From: an uncultured Eggerthellaceae bacterium
GTDB taxonomy: Bacteria > Actinomycetota > Coriobacteriia > Coriobacteriales > Eggerthellaceae
Reading direction: 5' to 3'
Length of the DNA stretch: 58,000 bases
Assembly: GCA_903789415.1 (NCBI GenBank)
Contig: CAIFEG010000010.1
Span: 1 to 58,000 of the forward strand
Shown here in pieces: positions 23,022 to 34,280 of the stretch. Both the position numbers and the translations under genes were made by a program. Each line of letters begins with the position of its first letter. Position 1 is the first letter of the stretch. Below the pieces are notes generated by a model, which was not told where the DNA came from, did not search any database, and saw only the letters and a list, made by a program, of their open reading frames with translations.

Positions 23022-24386
23022 ATGAATACACAGCGAACACACCTTCAAACAATTCAAGAGGACATGCAAACAATCCAAGAGAACGCGCATGCCCAAAATG
23101 CTGCATGCCCTTGGGCGCGTCAGTGTGGGGGATGTTCGCTTATCGGCGACGCGTACGAAAAACAGCTTCAAGCAAAAGATGCCCAAGTAGGGTTTCTGCT
23201 CGCCGATACCTTTTCAAAAAAGCAACTTTCAGGCGTGAAGGTCCATCCCGTGCACGGCATGGACAATCCATTTTTCTATCGGGATAAAATCGCATCACCG
23301 TTTGCTCCTGTGCGTGGTAAATCGTTTCGTAGGGACAACCGCGGGCAGAATATGGGCGCAAAGAAGAAGAGCCAGAAGAATCACCACGCGCGCAGCCGCG
23401 CGGAAGCATCTGTTGCATGTGGTTTGTATGCACGAGGAACGCATACGATCGTGCCGGTTACGCGTTGTGTGGTCGAGGCACCGGTGGGGCGCAGGATCAT
23501 ATTGGCCATTCGTCGGCTAATGCTTAAGTTCGATGTTCCTGCCTACGATGAAGACAGGAAAACAGGCTTTATTCGTCATGCGATTGTTCGCGTGGGCCAT
23601 CAAAGTGGCGAAGTGCTTGTAACTATCGTGACGGCGCAAGAGGAATGGCCGCATGGAAAACAGTTTGCCAAACAGCTAGTCAAAGCGGTGCCGCAGATTA
23701 CGACCGTGGTGCAAAATGTAAACTCGCGTGTGACCAACGCGATGCTTGGGCAGAAAGAGCATGTGCTCTATGGTCCCGGTTTTATTCTGGATCGCGTGTG
23801 TGGCGTGACGTTCCGCATTTCTTCGAAGACATTCTTCCAGGTTAATTCCACGCAAACTGAAGTACTTTACGACACGGCTATTCAGATGGCGCATCTTGAC
23901 GAACTTTCTGCGGATGTGCATCGTCCGCTTCATGTTCTGGATGCGTATTGTGGTTCGGGCGCGATTGGGCTTATTGCTGCGCATCGGTATCCATCAACGC
24001 AAATCGTTGGAGTAGAGTCGGTGGCGTCAGCGGTGGCCGACGCAAAGCAGAATGCCGTGCATAATGGCATATCAAACGCGCGGTTTATCAAAGCAGATGC
24101 AACGAAGTGGATCTTGGATAGAGTAGATACATTGGAGGAAAGTGCTGACGTGGTATTTATGGATCCTCCGCGAGCGGGATCCACGCCAGCATTTTTGCAT
24201 GCACTCATAAAAGCGGCGCCCCAGCGCATCGTATATGTATCGTGCAAACCGATAACGCAGATGCGTGATTTAACCCAGCTTGTAGGTCACGGGTACGTCC
24301 TTGATGAAGTGCAACCAGTCGATATGTTTCCGCAGACGCCTCACGTGGAGACGGTATGTCTTCTAAACAGAGAAGATGTCGTTTAA
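23022..24386 (+). CDS. TrmA/RlmD-family 23S rRNA (uracil-C5) methyltransferase
   Basis: A 454-residue SAM-dependent RNA methyltransferase. The N-terminal 4Fe-4S cysteines are in CPWARQCGGC plus a later Cys in TRCVVEA. Downstream come the SAM fold (LDAYCGSGAIGL), FMDPPRAG, the catalytic Cys in YVSCKP and the base Glu in HVETV. The usual N-terminal TRAM domain is missing. A basic Lys/Arg insertion (about residues 100-130) interrupts the early part. The N-terminus carries a 21-base tandem repeat encoding QTIQE(D/N) twice, and no clear ribosome site precedes ATG 23022. The 3' end borders the McrBC island. Confidence 0.88.
   Translation: MNTQRTHLQTIQEDMQTIQENAHAQNAACPWARQCGGCSLIGDAYEKQLQAKDAQVGFLLADTFSKKQLSGVKVHPVHGMDNPFFYRDKIASPFAPVRGKSFRRDNRGQNMGAKKKSQKNHHARSRAEASVACGLYARGTHTIVPVTRCVVEAPVGRRIILAIRRLMLKFDVPAYDEDRKTGFIRHAIVRVGHQSGEVLVTIVTAQEEWPHGKQFAKQLVKAVPQITTVVQNVNSRVTNAMLGQKEHVLYGPGFILDRVCGVTFRISSKTFFQVNSTQTEVLYDTAIQMAHLDELSADVHRPLHVLDAYCGSGAIGLIAAHRYPSTQIVGVESVASAVADAKQNAVHNGISNARFIKADATKWILDRVDTLEESADVVFMDPPRAGSTPAFLHALIKAAPQRIVYVSCKPITQMRDLTQLVGHGYVLDEVQPVDMFPQTPHVETVCLLNREDVV
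24342..24386 (+). repeat. Left copy of the rlmD 3'-end duplication
   Basis: The last 45 bases of the rlmD-type gene match 28610-28654 without gaps at 31 of 45 positions, including the perfect 12-mer GAGAAGATGTCG (24370-24381). The copies bracket the McrBC island. Confidence 0.7.
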
Positions 24387-24791
24387 TACGCCAAAGACCT
24401 GCAAACAACAAAATTTAATCGCTATATTTAGAAAACAGTTAGACGACTGATGTCAGAGGAAGGCTGTACCGTTTCTTACCTCAAGAAAAACTGGATAGTT
24501 AAGTCCAATACGATACAGAAGGTTACAGAGATTTGTGGCATAAAGTCGCCAATTTTATGAGTGTAACTCTGCGATGTAAAAGTGAAGTGATTGGAACAAC
24601 AGACCACACAGGCAGAGCTTCCAAAAAAGGTTGGCACTGCCACGTCGTATACTGGCAGACTCAATAAAGTTCTGGATAAAATCGTCAACAGGATCTTTCT
24701 CCAGATGATAATGGAAAAGCTTGGATATGGCATCGAATTTACATCTTGCATATAAGAAACGAGAAGATTAGTTGAGGAAGGAATAGCTGCA
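24387..24791. other. Gene-poor, AT-richer left part of the McrBC island
   Basis: Between rlmD and mcrB, 405 bases hold only fragments. One open frame (24450-24560, 36 residues, starts MSEEGCTVSY) and another (24591-24755, 54 residues, TTG start, containing LNKVLDKIVNRIFLQMIMEK) look coding-like in composition but have no family match I recognise. They may be remains of a displaced gene. mcrB follows with GAGGAAGGAATAG upstream. The base composition is lower in GC than rlmD. Confidence 0.45.
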
Positions 24792-26843
24792 ATGAGCGAA
24801 AATTACGGCGATCACACAGTTACTGAAGCAAGGAAGATGAATAAATCTGTCCCTAGAAAGAGAGTCTGGCTTCTTTCGTGGAATGTAGATAACTGGAAAT
24901 GGGACGGATACGCCGAAATGTGTCAACAGACAAAAATGGGGGTTCCGGTTATTGAAGGCTGGTCCTGTTTAAATACTCATCCTAAAAACGGTGATGAGGT
25001 ATTTCTTATAAAACTTGGAAATTTACCGAAAGGAATAGTTGGTCACGGAATAGTTGTCCGAAAGAGTTATAAAAGTAAAAACGAGCACCATGTTTCGCAT
25101 AAGTCCGCGAAGAAAAAAACAATCAGGTATATAGATGTTAAATTCGATCGACTGATTGATTATGAGAAAGAAAAGTATCTTCCGCAGCGTGAACTACAGA
25201 GAAAATGCGGGGCACAGTATTGGAGCCCTCAAGGCTCAGGTATTGAAATCAAACCAGAAGTAGTTCCAGTGCTCCATGAACTTTGGTGGTCTGTTACAAC
25301 CGATGAACATGAAATGGTTAAGTTCGATCATAATCTGATTTTATCTGGCCCTCCCGGAACAGGGAAAACATATAACTCCATCATCTATGCTGTGGCAATC
25401 TGTGAAGGCAAACCTTTAGAAAAAGTAAAAAAAGAGCCGTATAGTGAAATATTACGACGGTACAATTTGCTTAAAGATGCCGGTAGAATCGCATTTATAA
25501 CATTCCATCAATCCTATGGATATGAGGAATTTATCGAAGGTATCAAGCCAAAACTTGACGAGAATAGTGGCACGCTCGGATACATCATAGAAGATGGCGT
25601 ATTCAAAAACTTCTGTAATAGAGCTAAATCTGTCAAAGTGCAGACATTGACCGGTGCACAGATAAAACCTCAGCCTCAAATATGGGGAATGATACTTGGC
25701 GGCACCGGAATGACTGATCTCAAAAGACAATGCTTTAAAAATGGCGAAATACGACTTGGACGGGTAGAAGTCAAAGAGGAAGATGCCAACGGTGGCTTTA
25801 CGGGAAAAGCAGGTATGTTCGGACATTCTAAGCATATAATGTATGATTTCCAGAATACGATGGAGATAGGCGATGTTGTCGTCATCGAGAAAAATAGTAA
25901 AAGTGTCGATGCGATCGGCGTGATCACGGGCGATTGCGTCTATGACAAATCTCAGCCGCAATATCCAAGAAGTCGTTCTGTAGAATGGCTTGTAAAAGAT
26001 ATTGATAAGAATATTGTCCCATTCCTTTCTAATGGGAGAAAGCAGCTCCCAAGGTTTTCGGTTTTCTCTTTCGACTATATCGGAATTAATTCGATTGCGC
26101 AGATTGTTAACGAATACCGAGATGATCAGGTTGTAAAAGTGCAACAAGAAACGAAACCATATGTGTTCATCATCGATGAGATTAATAGAGGGAACATCTC
26201 AAAGATATTCGGAGAGCTGATAACGCTTATTGAAGATAAGAAACGCGCAGGTGCCGAGGAAGCGATGGATGCCATCCTCCCATACTCAAGGGAATCCTTC
26301 TCTGTACCACAGAATGTATATATCCTAAGCACCATGAACACAGCTGATCGATCAATCGCATTGATGGATACGGCGCTCAGAAGGCGTTTCGAATTTGAAG
26401 AAATGATGCCTGAATCCGGCGTTCTGAAAGAACTGGGCATCGAGACAATTGTGATTGACGGCGTTGAGCTCAATATAGCTCGGATGTTGGATACCATCAA
26501 CGAGAGAATCGAATATCTCTTTGATCGTGAACATACTATTGGACATGCTTTCTTTGTAAAATTGGCTGACAATCCATCAATAGATACTCTATCTGGCATC
26601 TTCAAGAAGAAAGTTGTTCCATTACTCCAGGAGTATTTCTTCGAAGACTACGAAAAAATCCAGCTGGTGTTGGGAGACAACAAAAAAGACGATGAATATA
26701 AATTTATTTTGGACACGCCTGTAAAGGTCAAGGACATCTTCAATGGGAACCCAGATGTTGATCTTCCGGAAAAGCGATACCAGATTCAGGAGTCTGCGTT
26801 CGACAAGATTCAGAGTTATAAATTGATAGGCAAGGATTTATGA
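24792..26843 (+). CDS. mcrB: McrB-like GTPase/AAA+ restriction subunit with two EVE/PUA-like domains
   Basis: A 683-residue McrB-type motor subunit. Residues about 20-165 resemble an EVE/PUA-like reader (WLLSWNVDNWKW, GDEVFLIKLG, GIVGHGIVV). The AAA+ core has Walker A GPPGTGKT (186-193), Walker B VFIIDEINRGNISKIFGEL (about 458) and STMNTADRSIALMDTALRRRFEF. A second EVE-like segment (about 298-400: WGMILGG, GDVVVIEKNSKSVDAIGVI, RSVEWL) is inserted between Walker A and B. McrBC-type systems cut DNA bearing modified bases, chiefly phage DNA. The start is ATG 24792 after GGAAGGAATAG; it overlaps mcrC by four bases. Confidence 0.9.
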   Translation: MSENYGDHTVTEARKMNKSVPRKRVWLLSWNVDNWKWDGYAEMCQQTKMGVPVIEGWSCLNTHPKNGDEVFLIKLGNLPKGIVGHGIVVRKSYKSKNEHHVSHKSAKKKTIRYIDVKFDRLIDYEKEKYLPQRELQRKCGAQYWSPQGSGIEIKPEVVPVLHELWWSVTTDEHEMVKFDHNLILSGPPGTGKTYNSIIYAVAICEGKPLEKVKKEPYSEILRRYNLLKDAGRIAFITFHQSYGYEEFIEGIKPKLDENSGTLGYIIEDGVFKNFCNRAKSVKVQTLTGAQIKPQPQIWGMILGGTGMTDLKRQCFKNGEIRLGRVEVKEEDANGGFTGKAGMFGHSKHIMYDFQNTMEIGDVVVIEKNSKSVDAIGVITGDCVYDKSQPQYPRSRSVEWLVKDIDKNIVPFLSNGRKQLPRFSVFSFDYIGINSIAQIVNEYRDDQVVKVQQETKPYVFIIDEINRGNISKIFGELITLIEDKKRAGAEEAMDAILPYSRESFSVPQNVYILSTMNTADRSIALMDTALRRRFEFEEMMPESGVLKELGIETIVIDGVELNIARMLDTINERIEYLFDREHTIGHAFFVKLADNPSIDTLSGIFKKKVVPLLQEYFFEDYEKIQLVLGDNKKDDEYKFILDTPVKVKDIFNGNPDVDLPEKRYQIQESAFDKIQSYKLIGKDL

Positions 26844-28180
26844 ATGGAAAATTGCTGGAAGTAAGGGAGTTTGACAAGATATCTTGTAACCCGGATTTCA
26901 AAGCTGAATATGCTTACCTTCCTGAGGACACTTTTCATGACCTGCAGGAATTTATATATTCTTTCCCTAGCGATAAGGAATATTCAGATGCCCTCGAATT
27001 TCTTAAGCCTGGCTATCGAAGGAACGTAGGCGATATCATCTCTGTAAGCAACTATGTTGGTCTGATTCAGATGCGTAATGGCTATCAGATCCAGGTGCTT
27101 CCCAAGATTGATCTTGGCACAGATGAGGACAACGGAAACCAAGAGACAAAGCGTATATTCCTGCGTATGTTGAGAAGCATTAAGTATTTTCCGGGCAAAG
27201 TTTTTAATGAAGCAAACTTAAAAATGGATAAAATGACGCTTTATGAAATCTTCATTAATATGTATTTGCAGGAAGTAAGAAATCTTGTAAAACGTGGAAT
27301 TAAATCTTCCTATGTGCTGCAGGAAGGCAATCTGAAGTTTTTCAAAGGAAAACTTGCTGTCAATGAAAATATTAAGCTGAACATCGCCCACAAAGAACGT
27401 TTTTTCGTAAGATATGATGACTACTTGGTGGACCGGCCGGAAAATCGGCTTATCAAATCGACACTTTTCAAGCTGTACGGCATCACTGAAAGCGCGGAAA
27501 ATAAGAGAGATATCCGCCGCTTGCTGACAGCGTTTGAAATGGTCAATCCTTCAACAAATTATCAGAGAGATTTCTCCCGAGTTGTTATCGACAGAAATAC
27601 AAAGGACTACGACATGTTGATGCGTTGGTCCAGGGTCTTCCTCTTAAACAAGAGCTTTTCGACATTTTCAGGAAGCCAAAATGCGAGAGCATTACTGTTT
27701 CCAATGGAGAGAGTGTTCGAATCCTACATTGCACAGCAGCTGAAGAAAGCACTTTGCGATTCAGGCTGCGAAGTTACTGCGCAGGATAAAGGTCATTATC
27801 TATTTGATTCACCGAAACGTTTTGCTCTAAGGCCGGATATTGTCATTACCAGAGAAGATGGGTCAAAGATCGTCCTGGATACGAAATGGAAGAGCTTGGT
27901 AAACTCTCCACAAAATAATTATGGCATTTCGCAGGCGGATATGTATCAGATGTATGTCTATTCAAAAAAATACGAAACGTCGGAAGTTTGGCTGATCTAT
28001 CCAATAAACAATGAAATGCGAGGCAATAATGAGATATCATTCAAAAGCAATGATGGCGTAAGCGTGAGATTGTTCTTTGTTGATCTGGCAAGAGAACGAT
28101 TTTATGAAAGCGTTCGCACGTTATGCGATCAGTTAGTGCCAAGCAGTGATAAAGCGAACAGTGAACGAATTACCGAATAA
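26840..28180 (+). CDS. mcrC: McrC-like nuclease subunit of a type IV restriction system
   Basis: A 446-residue McrC homologue of the McrBC 5-methylcytosine-dependent restriction family. The C-terminal PD-(D/E)XK nuclease is seen as LRPDIVI (about residue 330) and VLDTKWK (about 347). The N-terminal part should dock on the McrB ring. Its ATG overlaps the mcrB stop (ATGA), so the two are translationally coupled. Codon use is richer in AGA and AT-ending codons than the neighbours, which suggests acquisition. Confidence 0.92.
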   Translation: MNGKLLEVREFDKISCNPDFKAEYAYLPEDTFHDLQEFIYSFPSDKEYSDALEFLKPGYRRNVGDIISVSNYVGLIQMRNGYQIQVLPKIDLGTDEDNGNQETKRIFLRMLRSIKYFPGKVFNEANLKMDKMTLYEIFINMYLQEVRNLVKRGIKSSYVLQEGNLKFFKGKLAVNENIKLNIAHKERFFVRYDDYLVDRPENRLIKSTLFKLYGITESAENKRDIRRLLTAFEMVNPSTNYQRDFSRVVIDRNTKDYDMLMRWSRVFLLNKSFSTFSGSQNARALLFPMERVFESYIAQQLKKALCDSGCEVTAQDKGHYLFDSPKRFALRPDIVITREDGSKIVLDTKWKSLVNSPQNNYGISQADMYQMYVYSKKYETSEVWLIYPINNEMRGNNEISFKSNDGVSVRLFFVDLARERFYESVRTLCDQLVPSSDKANSERITE

Positions 28181-28202
28181 CAGATCGAGATTTAAAGAGA
28201 AT

Positions 28203-28328
28203 ATGCCATTATTGATTGCTCTTATGATTGGACTATTCATTTTAGGCAAGATTCAAAACCTAAAGCCGGCATTATATAGATTGTGGACAACCGATCTGAT
28301 AAGAAGATTGCTAATAAAAGAATACTAA
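28203..28328 (+). CDS. Possible small membrane peptide downstream of mcrC
   Basis: A 41-residue frame starting MPLLIALMIGLFILGKI has one hydrophobic segment followed by a basic tail. The same frame is open further upstream to an ATG at 28146 that overlaps mcrC. No family is recognised and no clear ribosome site precedes either start. It may be a remnant. Confidence 0.2.
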   Translation: MPLLIALMIGLFILGKIQNLKPALYRLWTTDLIRRLLIKEY

Positions 28329-28714
28329 TGTGTCAAATTCTACGACTCACTTGAATATTCAGTAGTTAAGCTATTTTCAAAAGCAGATGAATTGAACTGA
28401 AAAGTCGTTCCAATAAGGGCTACTTTTTTCTGGTATGAGAAAAGTGATAGCGGATGATTTTGAGTATATTCCAGAGTCAGACATTCAATTGTTGTATTGG
28501 CTAATTCAAATTTATCAGATAGGCGAAGAGCCTATGTTTCCCGGTCATTTTCCCCATACTTTCGATTTTTGATATAAATCTGGCATTCATACATAGTGGT
28601 TTCTAGACACACATAGAATCGATACGCCTTCTCACTTGAGAAGATGTCGAATAGGAACCTAAACAGATATCTGTTTGCGATACGGTCAATGCCCAGGTTG
28701 ATGAAAGGAAAAAC
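28329..28714. other. Right part of the McrBC island, no credible gene
   Basis: These 386 bases are AT-rich. One short frame (28435-28572, 45 residues, MRKVIADDFEYIPESD...) has no ribosome site and no recognised family. A CTTCTCA-CT-TGAGAAG inverted repeat lies at 28628-28643, inside the decayed rlmD-like 3' end (28610-28654). The last 60 bases carry the GAAAGGAAA ribosome site of the next gene. Confidence 0.5.
28610..28654 (+). pseudogene. Decayed duplicate of the rlmD 3' end
   Basis: Read in frame, this stretch gives HIESIRLLT, a stop, then EDVE and a stop, against HVETVCLLNREDVV and stop at the end of the intact gene. The 45-base alignment is gapless, 31 of 45 identical, with several differences at third positions or transitions. 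The core GAGAAGATGTCG (28638-28649) is identical in both. This is what insertion of an element at the 3' end of rlmD would leave. Confidence 0.6.
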
Positions 28715-29041
28715 ATGAGCCTTACAGTGAATCTTTACTACAAAGGGACAAACGGTAGTGCGAGAAAATTTGCTGATGAGATGGAAGAAAGCGGCGTTGC
28801 TGCCGCAATACGCGCAGAAGACGGCAATCTTCGATACGACTATTTCATTCCGCTGCATGATCCTGAGACAATTCTTTTGATTGACAGTTGGCGTGATCAG
28901 GAAGCATTAGATAAGCATCACGCATCGCCGATGATGCAGCAGCTTGCGGAACTTCGCGATAAGTACGATCTGCATATGAAAGCCGAGCGGTACGTTTCAG
29001 TTGAAGAGCCGGAGGGCGAAGATAAGTTTATTCGAAAATAG
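28715..29041 (+). CDS. Antibiotic biosynthesis monooxygenase (ABM) domain protein
   Basis: A 108-residue dimeric ferredoxin-like fold protein of the ABM/quinol monooxygenase superfamily. The pattern LRYDYFIPLHDPETILLIDSWRDQEALDKHHASPMMQQL is typical. Members act on quinols or haem-like substrates without a metal or flavin, but the substrate here is unknown. The ribosome site GAAAGGAAA precedes ATG 28715. It ends near a shared terminator with the flavodoxin pair. Confidence 0.82.
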   Translation: MSLTVNLYYKGTNGSARKFADEMEESGVAAAIRAEDGNLRYDYFIPLHDPETILLIDSWRDQEALDKHHASPMMQQLAELRDKYDLHMKAERYVSVEEPEGEDKFIRK

Positions 29042-29119
29042 GGCACAATGGTGCCAGACACGTGTGAGCTACATGTGCTGAGATACATATGTGTGAAATA
29101 TAAATGGTGTTGATATTAC

Positions 29120-29148
29120 AAAAAGAGCCTGGGCAAATGTCCAGGCTC
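29120..29148 (-). terminator. Terminator between the ABM gene and the flavodoxin pair
   Basis: GAGCCTGG (29125-29132) pairs with CCAGGCTC (29141-29148). On the minus strand the stem is followed by TTTTT (complement of 29120-29124). It serves the flavodoxin genes and probably also the convergent ABM gene. Confidence 0.82.
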
Positions 29149-29215
29149 ATATACTTCTTCAGGTGCAATAAATCTTCAGCTAAAACGTTTCGTTAAAAAG
29201 CGTTTGTGCAAGAAA

Positions 29216-29674
29216 TTAAGCAAAAATGTCTCCGGAAATTCTGCCGTTTGCCATTTTGCCTTCAATAATATTGAGCTGCGGATAGGCGCGCTTCAGATCT
29301 TCAACCGCTGCGCCAATTCCTGAACCGCCCGATGTAGCAAACAGATACACCTGCTTGCCGGCAAAATCATTTGCATCTAAGAATGTTTTTACCACATTGG
29401 GAGCCACGCCCCACCAAATGGGGAAGCCAAGATACAGCTTGTCATATTTCGCAGTATCTACCGGTGCGTTCGTGATTGCGGGTCGAATGCTTGGATCGTT
29501 CTTTTCCTGTGTGCTTCTTGAATTTGAGTCGGTCCAGTCAAGGTCAGCACGTGAATAGGGTGTCTCTGGTTCGATTGATATCAGGTCAGCACCAGCCGCT
29601 TGGGCTAAGTCCTTTGCCTTTCTTGCGGTGTTTCCATTTTTTGCTGATGAAAAATATGCTACTAACGTTGCCAT
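29216..29674 (-). CDS. Flavodoxin-fold protein
   Basis: A 152-residue protein with the Flavodoxin_4 pattern: VAYFSSAKNGNTARKAKDLAQ for the FMN phosphate loop, YDKLYLGFPIWWGVAPNVVKTFL, and YLFATSGGSGIG. These are small electron carriers or reductases binding FMN. It lies 21 bases after a second flavodoxin-like gene, under a promoter with two TetR-type operators. The pair may detoxify quinones or similar compounds; this is inferred from context. Confidence 0.88.
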   Translation of the reverse strand: MATLVAYFSSAKNGNTARKAKDLAQAAGADLISIEPETPYSRADLDWTDSNSRSTQEKNDPSIRPAITNAPVDTAKYDKLYLGFPIWWGVAPNVVKTFLDANDFAGKQVYLFATSGGSGIGAAVEDLKRAYPQLNIIEGKMANGRISGDIFA

Positions 29675-29695
29675 GATATGTACTCCTATCAGTCT

Positions 29696-30232
29696 CTAGC
29701 GTACGTTTTTCCCAAATTGATATGCCTGTGTAACGTATAGTGATCTCTTTGTCATGCTTGGGGTTCCACACCCATATCCAAGAATTTCACCTTTATCCTG
29801 GAATCCACAATAACGCACCAGGGTTTTGTAATGAGCATCAAGTGCATCAAAGGTCCAATCTGAAGAGTTCCATGCAACAGCCAGGAGCGCCGTTGCAAGA
29901 TGTTTTGCATGCAGGCTGGAATTAAATGCACAGAAACGGTCGATAACGGCTTTCAGCTGGGCGGTCATTCCGTAGTAATACAGCGGTGTCGCAAAAACGA
30001 GCATATCGGCATCGAGTATTTGCGCGCGCAGTGTCTCCATGCCGTCTTTTTGGACGCATGGTCCCTCGTATCCGCAGGCCACACATCCCGTACAAGGGTG
30101 AATGTTTGCATGAGCAACATCGACGATGTGGATGGAATGGCCAGCTTCACGTGCACCATCGGCAAAAGCGTGGGACAGGATTGCGGTTGACCCATTTTGA
30201 TTCGGACTGCCTTGTAGTATGAGGATGTTCAT
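29696..30232 (-). CDS. Flavodoxin-family NAD(P)H-dependent FMN reductase-like protein
   Basis: A 178-residue flavoprotein: MNILILQGSPNQNGSTAIL (FMN loop), a cysteine motif CTGCVACGYEGPC, and DADMLVFATPLYYYGMTAQLKAVIDRF. The CxxC-type cysteines are typical of the iron-sulphur flavoprotein/multimeric flavodoxin group. ATG 30232 is selected for its AGAGGAGG ribosome site; an open frame extends upstream but without the family start. It is the first gene of the TetR-controlled pair. Confidence 0.88.
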   Translation of the reverse strand: MNILILQGSPNQNGSTAILSHAFADGAREAGHSIHIVDVAHANIHPCTGCVACGYEGPCVQKDGMETLRAQILDADMLVFATPLYYYGMTAQLKAVIDRFCAFNSSLHAKHLATALLAVAWNSSDWTFDALDAHYKTLVRYCGFQDKGEILGYGCGTPSMTKRSLYVTQAYQFGKNVR

Positions 30233-30324
30233 AAGCGTCCTCCTCTCTGCCATGAAAATCTTCCGAGATGATCTCAAGATGAGATCTCGAGATGTTTCGT
30301 CCGTCAATTGCGGACAGATTTTAC

Positions 30325-30337
30325 TGACGTTGTGTCA
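30325..30337. promoter_or_regulatory. TetR-type operator, site 1
   Basis: TGAC-GTTGT-GTCA, a TGAC-N5-GTCA palindrome flanked by matching C and G. It lies just downstream of the predicted -10 of the flavodoxin promoter. The same pattern recurs at 30363 and 31060. Confidence 0.7.
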
Positions 30338-30347
30338 GCGCAATCAT

Positions 30348-30376
30348 ATTATTACATTAACCTGACAGTATGTCAA
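30348..30376 (-). promoter_or_regulatory. Promoter of the flavodoxin pair
   Basis: On the minus strand, TTGACA (30376-30371) and AATAAT (30353-30348) are 17 bases apart. The -35 is embedded in operator site 2. Confidence 0.55.
30363..30375. promoter_or_regulatory. TetR-type operator, site 2
   Basis: TGAC-AGTAT-GTCA, overlapping the -35 box of the flavodoxin promoter. Its centre is 38 bases from site 1. Confidence 0.72.
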
Positions 30377-30398
30377 TATAATTTATATCCAATAACTT

Positions 30399-31019
30399 TT
30401 ATTGAAACAATTTTGAAAGAAGGGAATACGTTAAATCGTATACCGTCATTTTTGGATGGGGCGTTCCTACCTTATCCATTGCTTCCTTTTGCTTTTCGGT
30501 AATGTGCGAGTATGGATACACTCCATGCAGATAAGGAAAGAACTGAAAGCGAATCTTGAAGCACTCCTGCGTCGATTTTTTAGGTAAGAATTTATGCAGA
30601 CAGACATCAAAAGCTTCAAATGCCCTCTGCATCGCGGCTTTATATTCAAGAAGGCGTTCTGGTCTGCTGTTATCTTCAATTTCGTTGAAATTTGTAGACA
30701 GAATTCTCAGCATTGTTTCGCGTTGTTCAAGCGTATGTGCCACAGCGGAAGCGAGCTCATCTGCACTCAACGTTTCGTTGTGCTCCGCAATCGACCGCAA
30801 ATCCTCAGCCCAGTTATTGGTTTCCCTGGTAATCAGCCCTAAAAAGATTTCTTCGATCGTCTGGAAATAGTTGTAGATAGAAGGCCGTGAGAAACTGGTA
30901 AACGTTGCAATATCTTTCATGGTTACGTTGCGGTAGGAGGTCTTCTGGTAAAGCGAGGCACACGCATCGAGGATTTCATCCTTGCGCTCTTGTACTTTTT
31001 CGCTACTGATCTTTGGCAT
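30399..31019 (-). CDS. TetR-family transcriptional regulator
   Basis: A 206-residue TetR repressor. The N-terminal helix-turn-helix is RKDEILDACASLYQKTSYRNVTMKDIATFTSFSRPSIYNYF (described by residues 10-50), followed by a ligand-binding region that matches the FMN-pair-associated subgroup of anaerobes. ATG 31019 has a strong AAAGGAGG site; the in-frame ATG at 31073 lacks one. Three TGAC-N5-GTCA sites lie in its own promoter and that of the flavodoxin genes downstream, so it probably represses both. Confidence 0.9.
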   Translation of the reverse strand: MPKISSEKVQERKDEILDACASLYQKTSYRNVTMKDIATFTSFSRPSIYNYFQTIEEIFLGLITRETNNWAEDLRSIAEHNETLSADELASAVAHTLEQRETMLRILSTNFNEIEDNSRPERLLEYKAAMQRAFEAFDVCLHKFLPKKSTQECFKIRFQFFPYLHGVYPYSHITEKQKEAMDKVGTPHPKMTVYDLTYSLLSKLFQ

Positions 31020-31322
31020 TTTTCCTCCTTTAGCTTCGCAATTCAGTATGGTCTTATTCTGACACGAAGTCAATTAAAATATCAATTTGATATCAGCCGT
31101 TGCAGAAATTGAGGCGGATGCCCATACGCAATGCAACTTCTGGAAACTTCGAATCCGCGCAACCCCGAACCCACATAGCGCGAACCCATATATGTACTTT
31201 TTTCGGTGAGCAAACTGGGAAATCATTTGGCTTATTGAGGTGACGGTATACTTTTAAAAGATCATCAAGAGCCTACAAGTCATAAGGACCCTACAACGCA
31301 TAGGGTGAATGGAGCGCATTGC
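31020..31322. promoter_or_regulatory. Divergent gap between tetR and the DUF554 gene
   Basis: The tetR side holds the promoter and operator (31045-31073). The remaining 250 bases contain an ATATCAA/TTGATAT inverted repeat near 31078-31094 and GCGCAACC/GCGAACCC-like words, but no gene and no firm promoter for the DUF554 gene. Confidence 0.5.
31045..31073 (-). promoter_or_regulatory. tetR promoter with TetR-type operator, site 3
   Basis: TTGACT (31073-31068) and CATACT (31050-31045) are 17 bases apart on the minus strand. TGAC-ACGAA-GTCA (31060-31072) overlaps the -35 in the same way as site 2, indicating autorepression. Confidence 0.62.
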
Positions 31323-32018
31323 GTGGGCATCATCGTTAACACATTAGCTATTTTTATCGGTACGTTGATCGGTTGCGTTTTGCATCGCGGCATCAGCGCG
31401 CGATACGAAAATGCCCTCTTCCTTGCCGTTGGCCTCATTGCATTTGGCGTGGGTATTGGTTATGTCGTACGCGAAATGCCTAATTGTCAGTACCTTGCGC
31501 TTCCCATCCTGAGCTTAGCTATCGGTGCGGTACTTGGTGAATGGTGGAATCTTGATGGCAGTGTGCATGGATTTGTAGAGCGACACATGACAGAGGGAAG
31601 TAAAACCGCAAACGGAATCATCTCAGCGACACTTTTATATTGTGTTGGAGCACTTTCGATTGTGGGACCAGTGATGTTGGCAACTACCGGCGATAACACC
31701 ATGTTGTTCACGAATGCATCGATGGATTTCATCACGGCAATGGTCTTTGGATCCACGTTTGGGTGGGGCATGCTCATTACGCCGCTGTTTCTATTTGCAT
31801 GGCAAGGCTCAATCTACGCCATTGCGAAATATGTATCTGCAGGCTTTTTTACGGGTGATCTGATAACGGAGCTTGCCGTCGTCGGTGGCTTTTTAGTCAT
31901 GACCACCGGCATTTCGCTGCTTAAAATCCGGGATATCAAAACGCTGAATTTACTTCCTGCGCTTTTGGTTCCTATCGTATTTTTTATGGTGAAAGATTTA
32001 GTAGGGCTGCCGTTCTAA
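31323..32018 (+). CDS. DUF554 membrane protein
   Basis: A 231-residue integral membrane protein of the DUF554/YdfK family: it opens with GIIVNTLAIFIGTLIG and has GAVLGEWWNLD and LLYCVGALSIVGPV, with about seven helices. The function is unknown; a transport role is often guessed. GTG 31323 gives the usual short N-terminus and has TGGAG upstream; an in-frame GTG at 31305 would add six residues. Confidence 0.88.
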   Translation: MGIIVNTLAIFIGTLIGCVLHRGISARYENALFLAVGLIAFGVGIGYVVREMPNCQYLALPILSLAIGAVLGEWWNLDGSVHGFVERHMTEGSKTANGIISATLLYCVGALSIVGPVMLATTGDNTMLFTNASMDFITAMVFGSTFGWGMLITPLFLFAWQGSIYAIAKYVSAGFFTGDLITELAVVGGFLVMTTGISLLKIRDIKTLNLLPALLVPIVFFMVKDLVGLPF

Positions 32019-32165
32019 AACTGCCCTTTTAACCTGCTGTTTCGAAGATTTCTATTCGCGGTCTGCATCCTTTGGAAATGCGCTACAGGAAATCCTCTAC
32101 AGGAAAGCTACCGAAAATTCTCCACAGGAAATGTGCTACCGCATCTTTGGCAATACATTTGATCG

Positions 32166-32936
32166 CTACACCAGGTACATCTTGTGAAGCGTGTCTTCTT
32201 CGGCAAACCCAACCCCGCATTCATTCTCTAAAAATGTCACGAAATTGCCGTATTTCTCATCGATCGCATCAAAGGCGGCATTGATATATTCAGGACGTGC
32301 CTCAAGAAGCGGTCCAATCTTGTCTGAAAGTTTTGGTTGCTTTTGTGCCCGAAATGCCTGATGAATAATTTTGTTCCGTCTATCTGCCAGCTCGTAATTT
32401 GTCTCGCAATAATCATGCATAATCTCGTCTTCGCCAACATTAAGTACGGAAAGAATAATGGCAATGACTAGGCCTGTACGATCTTTCCCATTACTGCAGT
32501 GAAAAAGTACGCCCTTATCTCCTGCATCTAACAGCGCTTTAAAAATTAAACGCCAACGCGGAGAAACGCGGGGGTCTACCATTTTGCGGTATACACCGCA
32601 GATGTCATAGGTATCTGGGTCCCATCTGCCCTGCAGAATTTCACGCCAATTGTAATCCTGAAACGTGAGTCCGAGCGTTTTTACCGGAACCATCGGAGCC
32701 ACAATATGTTTGATACCAGGGATTTGCGGGTCGGGCTCACCATTGCGCTCCATTCGTGTGCGCAGGTCAACAATGGTGCCAATGTTGAGCTCGCCTTGTA
32801 TGCGAGCAATATCCGCGGGAGTTGCATTGCTTAACAGGCCGCTTCGATAGAGCCGATGCGGTCGTACGTGTTGCTTATAAAGATTAGAGATGCCGCCTAA
32901 ATCTCGAAAGTTTGTGATTCCTTGCATCTTCGCCAT
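32166..32936 (-). CDS. Tyrosine-protein-phosphatase-like protein (Y_phosphatase3/IphP type)
   Basis: A 256-residue cysteine-dependent phosphatase. Signatures are the N-terminal ITNFRDLGGI, YRSGLLSNAT, IVDLRT and the active-site loop FHCSNGKDRTG. These enzymes hydrolyse phosphotyrosine, phosphoserine or phosphoinositide substrates; the natural one is unknown. No signal peptide is seen, so it is probably cytoplasmic. Three near-copies of an ACAGGAAA word lie just past its end (32085-32130). Confidence 0.88.
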   Translation of the reverse strand: MAKMQGITNFRDLGGISNLYKQHVRPHRLYRSGLLSNATPADIARIQGELNIGTIVDLRTRMERNGEPDPQIPGIKHIVAPMVPVKTLGLTFQDYNWREILQGRWDPDTYDICGVYRKMVDPRVSPRWRLIFKALLDAGDKGVLFHCSNGKDRTGLVIAIILSVLNVGEDEIMHDYCETNYELADRRNKIIHQAFRAQKQPKLSDKIGPLLEARPEYINAAFDAIDEKYGNFVTFLENECGVGFAEEDTLHKMYLV

Positions 32937-33089
32937 ATTGCCATGTATCCCTATGTAATGTCCCCTCAGATATTGTTTTATTGAACACTATTGTACCGTG
33001 AGCATCGTTTTGTTGTGTACGGGTGCTGTTCTAAGATAAGTAAGATACATACATATCGAAGTTCAACTGTTGTTGGGAAAGACCACTAC

Positions 33090-34280
33090 ATGGATGTTGA
33101 TCAGGCAAAAAAGATTACGTTAGACACAACGAAAAAGGTTTTAAAAACCATCCAAGAACGTCATCTTGCCGATGCTACGACACCGGTGATATTGATGGTG
33201 TCGGGGGGCTCAGACTCCACGGCATTATCGTATATTGCACATGATTTATATAAGGAAGGCAACCTTGGACCTCTCGCTATGCTGCATGTCAACCACCAGC
33301 TTCGTGGAGGCGAATCTGATGACGATGCTCAATTTGTCCAGAAACTTGCCGATGCGCTTTCAATTCCGCTCTTCATGGTGAAGGTAAATGTGGCACGCGT
33401 GGCAAAGCAAACCGGACAGAATCTGGAGGCTGCGGGCAGGGGAGAGCGATACGCGAGCGCCCATGATGCCCTGAAAAGTTTGTGTACGCATACCAATACC
33501 GATCTCTCGCTGGGTCGTGTGTTTACCGCCCACACTGCAGATGATCGTGTCGAAAATTTCTATATGCGCTCGATTGTCGGCACTGGACCAGGTGGTTTTC
33601 GGTCCATGCGCTATGAAAAAGGCGAGGTACGCCGCCCGCTTTTGGACTGTGGGCGCGATGAACTTCGTGACTACTTGCGTGCACGCGCAACGCTTTCTGA
33701 TGAAGGCATAGAAAGTCCCACAACCCATAAAATTCCTGCGATTGTGCGCGACGAAACAGGCAATCTATGGCGGGAAGATGTGACAAATGAAGATACCGAT
33801 CGTTTTCGTGCCTTTGTTCGTCACAACATCGTGCCCGTGGCAAAGTCGCGTAACCCTCATCTTTTAGATGTCCTTACACGTACGATGAATCTTATCGCTG
33901 ATGAGGATGACATGTTGGAGTCATCGGCTGCGCGTCTCATTGAGATTCGTGTTGCGTGGGTGGACGAAGAAGGTACACCGGGGCGCCCGGGATTTGATCG
34001 GAACTGCGGTCATGGGTGCGTGATTGACCCGAAGATGGCGCGCTGTAAACGTCCGGTTTTGCGCCGGGTGGTGTTGCAGCTCCTCCATCAGATGACCCAG
34101 GCAGACGCTCGCATCGACACTTCGTCGGTTCAAGCAGTGGTGGATGCGTTTGATGAGCGCGGTCCAAAAAGTGGCTACACTGCTAACATTCAAGGAAATT
34201 TAGCCATTTCGGCAAATAAAAGGGGAGTGCGCATAGAGCCGATGGAAGATTATCGCGCTCGTAGAAAGGGCATCAAATGA
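33090..34280 (+). CDS. tilS: tRNA(Ile)-lysidine synthetase
   Basis: A 396-residue TilS that converts C34 of tRNA-Ile to lysidine so that it reads AUA. The PP-loop is VSGGSDSTALSY, followed by LHVNHQLRGGESDDD and the family segment HTADDRVENFYMR. It leads the tilS-maf-hpt-ftsH-folPK run, an order partly conserved in Gram-positive bacteria. ATG 33090 fits the family length; the frame is open upstream to 32991 but that extension is not TilS-like. Confidence 0.92.
   Translation: MDVDQAKKITLDTTKKVLKTIQERHLADATTPVILMVSGGSDSTALSYIAHDLYKEGNLGPLAMLHVNHQLRGGESDDDAQFVQKLADALSIPLFMVKVNVARVAKQTGQNLEAAGRGERYASAHDALKSLCTHTNTDLSLGRVFTAHTADDRVENFYMRSIVGTGPGGFRSMRYEKGEVRRPLLDCGRDELRDYLRARATLSDEGIESPTTHKIPAIVRDETGNLWREDVTNEDTDRFRAFVRHNIVPVAKSRNPHLLDVLTRTMNLIADEDDMLESSAARLIEIRVAWVDEEGTPGRPGFDRNCGHGCVIDPKMARCKRPVLRRVVLQLLHQMTQADARIDTSSVQAVVDAFDERGPKSGYTANIQGNLAISANKRGVRIEPMEDYRARRKGIK

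Follow-up and report, generated by a model that had tools for sequence, protein, structure and literature searches.

In the 58,000-nucleotide stretch of DNA analyzed here (the window), which comes from an uncultured Eggerthellaceae bacterium, an rlmD gene is followed by an mcrBC operon lying between two spacers, and the second spacer ends at a second copy of the last 45 bases of rlmD (Table 1). The ordinary gene order in this family is rlmD, tilS, and hpt, and tilS starts less than 400 bp past the end of rlmD in 21 of 77 loci, compared with about 8.7 kb past it in the window. Between the island and tilS (28655-32990) lies a block of genes encoding an ABM monooxygenase, flavodoxin-like and FMN-reductase-like proteins, a TetR-like regulator, a DUF554-like protein, and a tyrosine phosphatase. 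This block mostly has no counterparts behind rlmD in relatives, the phosphatase alone recurring close behind rlmD, and, in the relatives examined, the gene for the ABM monooxygenase was not found in the 20 kb that follow rlmD. A scan of genome contigs yielded no close relative in which the rlmD site is empty.

Table 1. Features of the rlmD locus, with coordinates given as positions in the window.
Feature	Coordinates	Strand	Evidence
rlmD	23022..24386	+	Pfam PF05958 at 2e-15; relatives with 50-56% identity in nearly all family genomes
Left copy, present rlmD 3' end, HVETVCLLNREDVV*	24342..24386	+	31/45 to right copy; nearest end is the one supplied by the G062 element
Spacer, decayed short open frames, no recognized gene	24387..24791	.	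39.5% G+C
mcrB, AAA+ GTPase with N-terminal EVE and an extra stretch	24792..26843	+	PF07728 AAA_5, PF01878 EVE
mcrC, PD-DxK nuclease subunit, full length	26840..28180	+	PF10117 at 3.1e-91, profile positions 3-318 of 318
Spacer, decayed short open frames	28181..28609	.	34% G+C; no recognizable integrase remnant
Right copy, probable displaced and decayed rlmD 3' end, HIESIRLLT*EDVE*	28610..28654	+	31/45 to left copy; RlmD C-terminus profile 20.3 vs 17.4
ABM-domain monooxygenase, first gene right of the island	28715..29041	+	PF03992 at 1.4e-13
tilS-like gene, usual downstream neighbor of rlmD in the family	32991..34280	+	Distance comparison across 77 loci

The insert has a G+C content of 39.9%, compared with 51.1% for rlmD and 48.3% for the window, and the step in G+C content coincides with the insert. 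The first-pass annotation, which had described an AT-richer insert carrying only mcrBC and gene fragments, was correct in this respect: the open reading frame (ORF) list and a Pfam scan of the island yielded only mcrB and mcrC and no transfer genes, and the three small open frames tested had no convincing Pfam match. Its statement that no integrase is present was likewise upheld, given that no recombinase was found among the island ORFs or by Pfam in the tested frames, and a search for a remnant of a serine recombinase C-terminus upstream of the right copy was negative. In the source genome assembly (G000), no PF07508 recombinase was detected. Look-alikes of a decayed serine recombinase 3' end before the right copy, spotted by eye, ranked no higher than other tiles of the window and were rejected. 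Searches of plasmid, phage, and viral collections produced no informative match.

The mcrBC operon is intact by domain content and belongs to the EVE type. The translated McrB contains the Walker A motif GPPGTGKT and the motif MNTADRS, as well as an EVE domain (PF01878, residues 25-119) that scored 23.5 bits, just above the cut-off of 23, and the translated McrC contains the motifs PDIV and DTK. The island pair thus combines the GTPase with Walker A and MNTADRS, the PD-DxK McrC, and the EVE reader domain that define McrBC type IV restriction. Additionally, Walker A and Walker B of McrB are separated by an extra stretch (window positions 25650-26010), with a PADLOC PDC-S02 match at residues 339-407, which may be a further recognition domain in addition to the N-terminal EVE. 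The EVE-McrB architecture is common (PMC7641849), and insertions in the McrB GTPase domain have been reported to be frequent (PMC11090510).

The second copy of the rlmD end in the window is real. The two copies are identical at 31 of 45 positions in an ungapped alignment, share the perfect 12-mer GAGAAGATGTCG, and are closed by in-frame stops, TAA and TAG, respectively. The runner-up ungapped match of the rlmD-end 45-mer across the whole window, on both strands, has 25 of 45 identities, and the binomial probability of a 31/45 match is 9.8e-10 per position, or 1.1e-4 such matches expected on both strands of the 58-kb window. Furthermore, with an RlmD C-terminus profile built from 80 relatives and the reverse strands of the 80 loci used as controls, the right copy scored 20.3 bits and the left copy 21.6, compared with a control maximum of 17.4. 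Thus, the repeat reported in the first-pass annotation, including its 12-mer, was borne out. A 30-nt DNA profile did not separate the right copy (17.6) from the best control (17.7), and the similarity did not extend significantly beyond its upstream border when gaps were allowed (score 47, with 2000 shuffles reaching 49 and another tile of the window also reaching 49). The sequence ATGTTTCCC at 28534 was considered as a further rlmD fragment and rejected, since the + strand of the window contains the motif ATGTTYCC six times.

The right copy reads HIESIRLLT*EDVE*, with an extra in-frame TGA at the position of AGA in the left copy; the translation proposed earlier, HIESIRLL...EDVE, was right as to the match and the terminal stop, but it is not an open frame. 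Reading the first eight codons of the two copies from the sequence, we found that all eight differences fall at codon positions 1 and 3, a pattern that looks like the divergence of two working gene ends and not like a recent duplicate in decay. The left copy is probably a tail supplied by an incoming element, and the right copy is probably the former native rlmD tail, now decaying. Among about 135 gene ends, the one nearest to the rlmD tail of the window is the tail supplied by an element in genome G062 (25/30 over positions 7-36, compared with 21/30 for the right copy of the window itself), a resemblance that may be inflated by shared A+T-rich codons. Other element-supplied tails also rank high against the rlmD tail of the window, and across the whole RlmD protein G062 is 50% identical to the window, compared with 55% for the closest genome.

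Intact-type elements are present at the same gene end in two genomes of the window's family, a 10.8-kb element directly behind rlmD in G062 and a 7.8-kb element in the same arrangement in G027, where the recombinase frame is interrupted, and in one genome of another family, G326, with an 8.8-kb element in this arrangement. In these elements, the displaced rlmD tail forms part of a large serine recombinase gene, at its 3' end, and rlmD in turn acquires an element-encoded tail of roughly 100 residues, which the rlmD of the window does not have. The G062 recombinase has Resolvase, Recombinase, and zinc-ribbon domains, and its last residues, NHDE-CVVLAERVER*, are the displaced RlmD tail. Close homologs of the element recombinase were found in only 3 of 398 genomes of the class (G062, G027, and G326), and all four copies are downstream of an rlmD-family gene, one of them behind a paralog in G062. 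This genome (L206, L211) encodes a second large serine recombinase about 16 kb behind the rlmD paralog, with an RlmD-like tail at its end, so that the element family may use paralogs too. A related recombinase was found in 51 of 397 Lachnospiraceae genomes, and its gene ends in an RlmD-like tail at at least 20 of the 30 loci examined.

The use of an rlmD/rumA-family gene as an integration site is already known. In Streptococcus, integrative elements (ICEs and IMEs) with a single serine integrase target rumA, a member of the same gene family as rlmD (PMC4701971, PMC5704250), with attR located inside the integrase gene and the 3' parts of rumA exchanged (PMC4701971), and elements have been described that kept attL and attR after losing the integrase and transfer genes (PMC5704250). 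Hence, the earlier suggestion that an rRNA methyltransferase gene serves here as the integration site fits the intact elements of relatives but is not novel.

We further compared about 100 rlmD ends of the family, many of them from draft genomes, with their own downstream DNA. Clear second copies were identified in G032 (92/94), G011 (85/88), G136 (37/38), G072 (36/37), and G001 (30/31 and 29/36), a short-range second copy in G018, and decayed second copies in G116 and G025. By comparison, a repeat of the gene's 3' end farther than 500 bp downstream was seen in 1 of 76 control loci for tilS and 0 of 56 for hpt. These relatives belong to other genera, so their repeats are informative on the behavior of the site and not on the history of the window itself. 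The cargos between the two rlmD ends encode Fic (G011 and G136), SMI1 and a GHH nuclease (G001), an acetyltransferase (G072), and a DUF1796 protein with a DUF4143 ATPase (G032). A PF07508 search and the reading of open frames near rlmD recognized no integrase in these five small cargos. The rlmD 3' end is thus used in relatives by both intact and stripped elements.

The repeats themselves differ among genomes. In relatives, the 5' border of the repeat lies anywhere between a point more than 80 nt ahead of the HxE codon and one 26 nt past it, so there is no single core common to all cases; the start of the similarity is within 2 nt of the same codon in the window and in G032, G116, and G001. 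The G011 repeat is a nearly perfect copy of over 80 nt of rlmD coding sequence, and the G032 repeat spans 94 nt, crossing the stop codon. The latter is present in four copies, all at the rlmD locus and nowhere else in the genome, and its interpretation as a dispersed repeat was rejected because of this confinement. These four copies (L150:305-4897) separate three modules, namely, a DUF1796 protein, a lipoprotein with the DUF4143 ATPase, and another lipoprotein. An apparent rlmD-end repeat in G074 (L100), which matches the reverse strand too, was discarded as a dispersed repeat. In G025 (L085), three partial rlmD fragments of the GATATGTTYCC type lie in a row at +860 to +951 from the rlmD end and another element-type tail lies at +7463, which suggests repeated insertions.

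Similar Fic proteins (L067:17950-18777, L061:17815-18918, and L143:16152-16988) are encoded directly behind rlmD in G136 and G135, which represent one genus, and behind rlmD in G011, which represents another, and the PADLOC candidate PDC-S72 was identified in both Fic proteins scanned. No repeat was detected in G135, tilS is directly behind rlmD in G133 and G134, which belong to the genus of G136, and another Fic protein is encoded behind rlmD in G024.

The proposal of a defense hot spot at this site holds in part: several cargos are defense-like or toxin-antitoxin-like (Fic, DUF4143 ATPase, and SMI1 with the GHH nuclease), but this does not apply to the others, and the loci searched yielded no further McrBC beside rlmD. 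For the near homologs of mcrBC (G078, G058, and five Lachnospiraceae genomes), rlmD was not within 1.5 kb, and no rlmD was found beside mcrBC in the 9-18 kb examined in G327, G409, G400, and a wider stretch of G078. It is conceivable, although we consider it unlikely, that the rlmD 3' end in this family is a cassette-capture site, to which small integrase-less cargos rich in defense and toxin-antitoxin genes would have been repeatedly added, each with its own version of the gene end, via a trans-acting recombinase or integrase-free recombination, the four-copy array of G032 being the furthest case.

We favor, with moderate confidence, the interpretation of 24387-28609 as the remnant of a mobile element that integrated at the rlmD 3' end and decayed to a CIME-like state, with EVE-McrBC kept. 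We infer which recombinase type acted, in what sequence the events took place, and what the island does at present, as follows. An element recombining at HxETV codons of rlmD-family genes would have inserted at the rlmD 3' end, with a large serine recombinase as the most plausible enzyme, as in the intact elements of relatives. The end of the element itself would have given rlmD its new functional tail (HVETVCLLNREDVV*), and the original tail, HIESIRLLT-EDVE, would have been pushed to the far end, where, no longer selected, it would decay. The recombinase and any transfer genes would have been lost later and the McrBC cargo kept. McrB is predicted to bind modified DNA via its EVE domain and to move by GTP hydrolysis, with McrC cutting, so the selected function would be restriction of modified phage or plasmid DNA.

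Several lines of evidence are in accord with an element remnant: the real second copy together with the coinciding G+C step; the elements of G062, G027, and G326 at the same gene end, and the RlmD-like tails of the Lachnospiraceae recombinase genes; the integrase-less cargos of G032, G011, G136, G072, and G001 and the decayed copies of G116 and G025, set against control rates of 1/76 and 0/56; the left tail of the window being closest to the element-supplied tail of G062; and the precedents of rumA 3' exchange (PMC4701971) and of elements keeping attL and attR (PMC5704250). Against it, no integrase, relaxase, or remnant of either was found in the island, PF07508 is lacking in G000, the rlmD of the window is without the element tail of about 100 residues, and the 5' border of the repeat varies in relatives. 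Moreover, the 12-mer sits at the 3' side of the repeat and could equally mark a different crossover point. The decayed element envisaged in the first-pass annotation fits the duplicated ends around the cargos of relatives and the three intact elements, but the right copy is more readily explained as what was once the native end than as a duplicate of the left one that has decayed.

The main rival is integrase-free capture, in which the rlmD end of a relative, together with mcrBC, would have been joined to rlmD by homologous recombination within the gene at one border and by illegitimate recombination at the other, leaving the donor tail on rlmD and the native tail behind the cargo. Such capture would account for borders of the duplicated stretch that differ between genomes, for the long and nearly perfect coding repeat in G011, for several cargos without a recognized recombinase, and for a similar Fic gene behind rlmD in two genera. 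We nevertheless deem it rather unlikely, considering that intact recombinase elements use the same gene end, that the similarity begins at nearly the same codon in the window and three relatives, and that no candidate donor, with another McrBC next to rlmD, was found.

The perfect 12-mer in both copies could alternatively be the core of an island of the kind that a tyrosine recombinase usually inserts at gene 3' ends, with no relation to the serine-recombinase elements. Repeats crossing the stop codon are common for tyrosine-type islands, and the G032 repeat is of this form. However, the reading of open frames in the inspected loci revealed no tyrosine recombinase beside rlmD, the similarity extends on both sides of the 12-mer, and the differences in the first eight codons are confined to positions 1 and 3, as between two functional gene ends, making this origin quite improbable. 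A chance similarity beside an ordinary mcrBC operon appears highly improbable: only 31 of 45 bases match, the gapped local alignment is no better than the best unrelated tile, and with the 30-nt DNA profile the right copy merely draws level with the best control, but only about 1e-4 such matches are expected in the window, the 45-mer match and the RlmD C-terminus profile agree, and several relatives have a repeat of this kind behind rlmD.

To conclude, the window alone is a modest result, the probable remains of an element that hold an ordinary EVE-type McrBC. Across the genomes compared, the rumA/rlmD integration site of streptococcal elements is also used in the bacterial family of the window, where several rlmD insertions are integrase-less, with small and often defense-like cargos. 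The rlmD 3' end is a precise spot to seek strain-variable defense genes, and a test case for how stripped islands keep moving or become fixed.

Among known systems, pseudo-SCC elements are integrase-less cargos at the 3' end of the rRNA methyltransferase gene rlmH. The island resembles them in the lack of an integrase and in its location at the 3' end of an rRNA methyltransferase gene, but involves a different gene and recombinase family and contains neither ccr genes nor SCC repeats. From EVE-McrBC type IV restriction systems (PMC7641849, PMC11090510) it does not differ in any essential way, with an EVE domain, a GTPase, and a PD-DxK McrC partner. A CIME is a cis-mobilizable element that lost its integration and transfer genes and kept attL and attR (PMC5704250); the ends in the window, unlike those of a CIME, are diverged and decayed, but the cargo similarly lies between two gene ends where intact elements also insert, and is accompanied by neither integrase nor transfer genes. 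Compared with the ICEs and IMEs at rumA of Streptococcus (PMC4701971, PMC5704250), the window has no serine integrase, mobility genes, or long element-encoded rlmD tail, but probably shares with them the target gene family, the exchange of the 3' part, and the displaced gene end at the far side, and intact relatives of these elements are present at rlmD in the family of the window.
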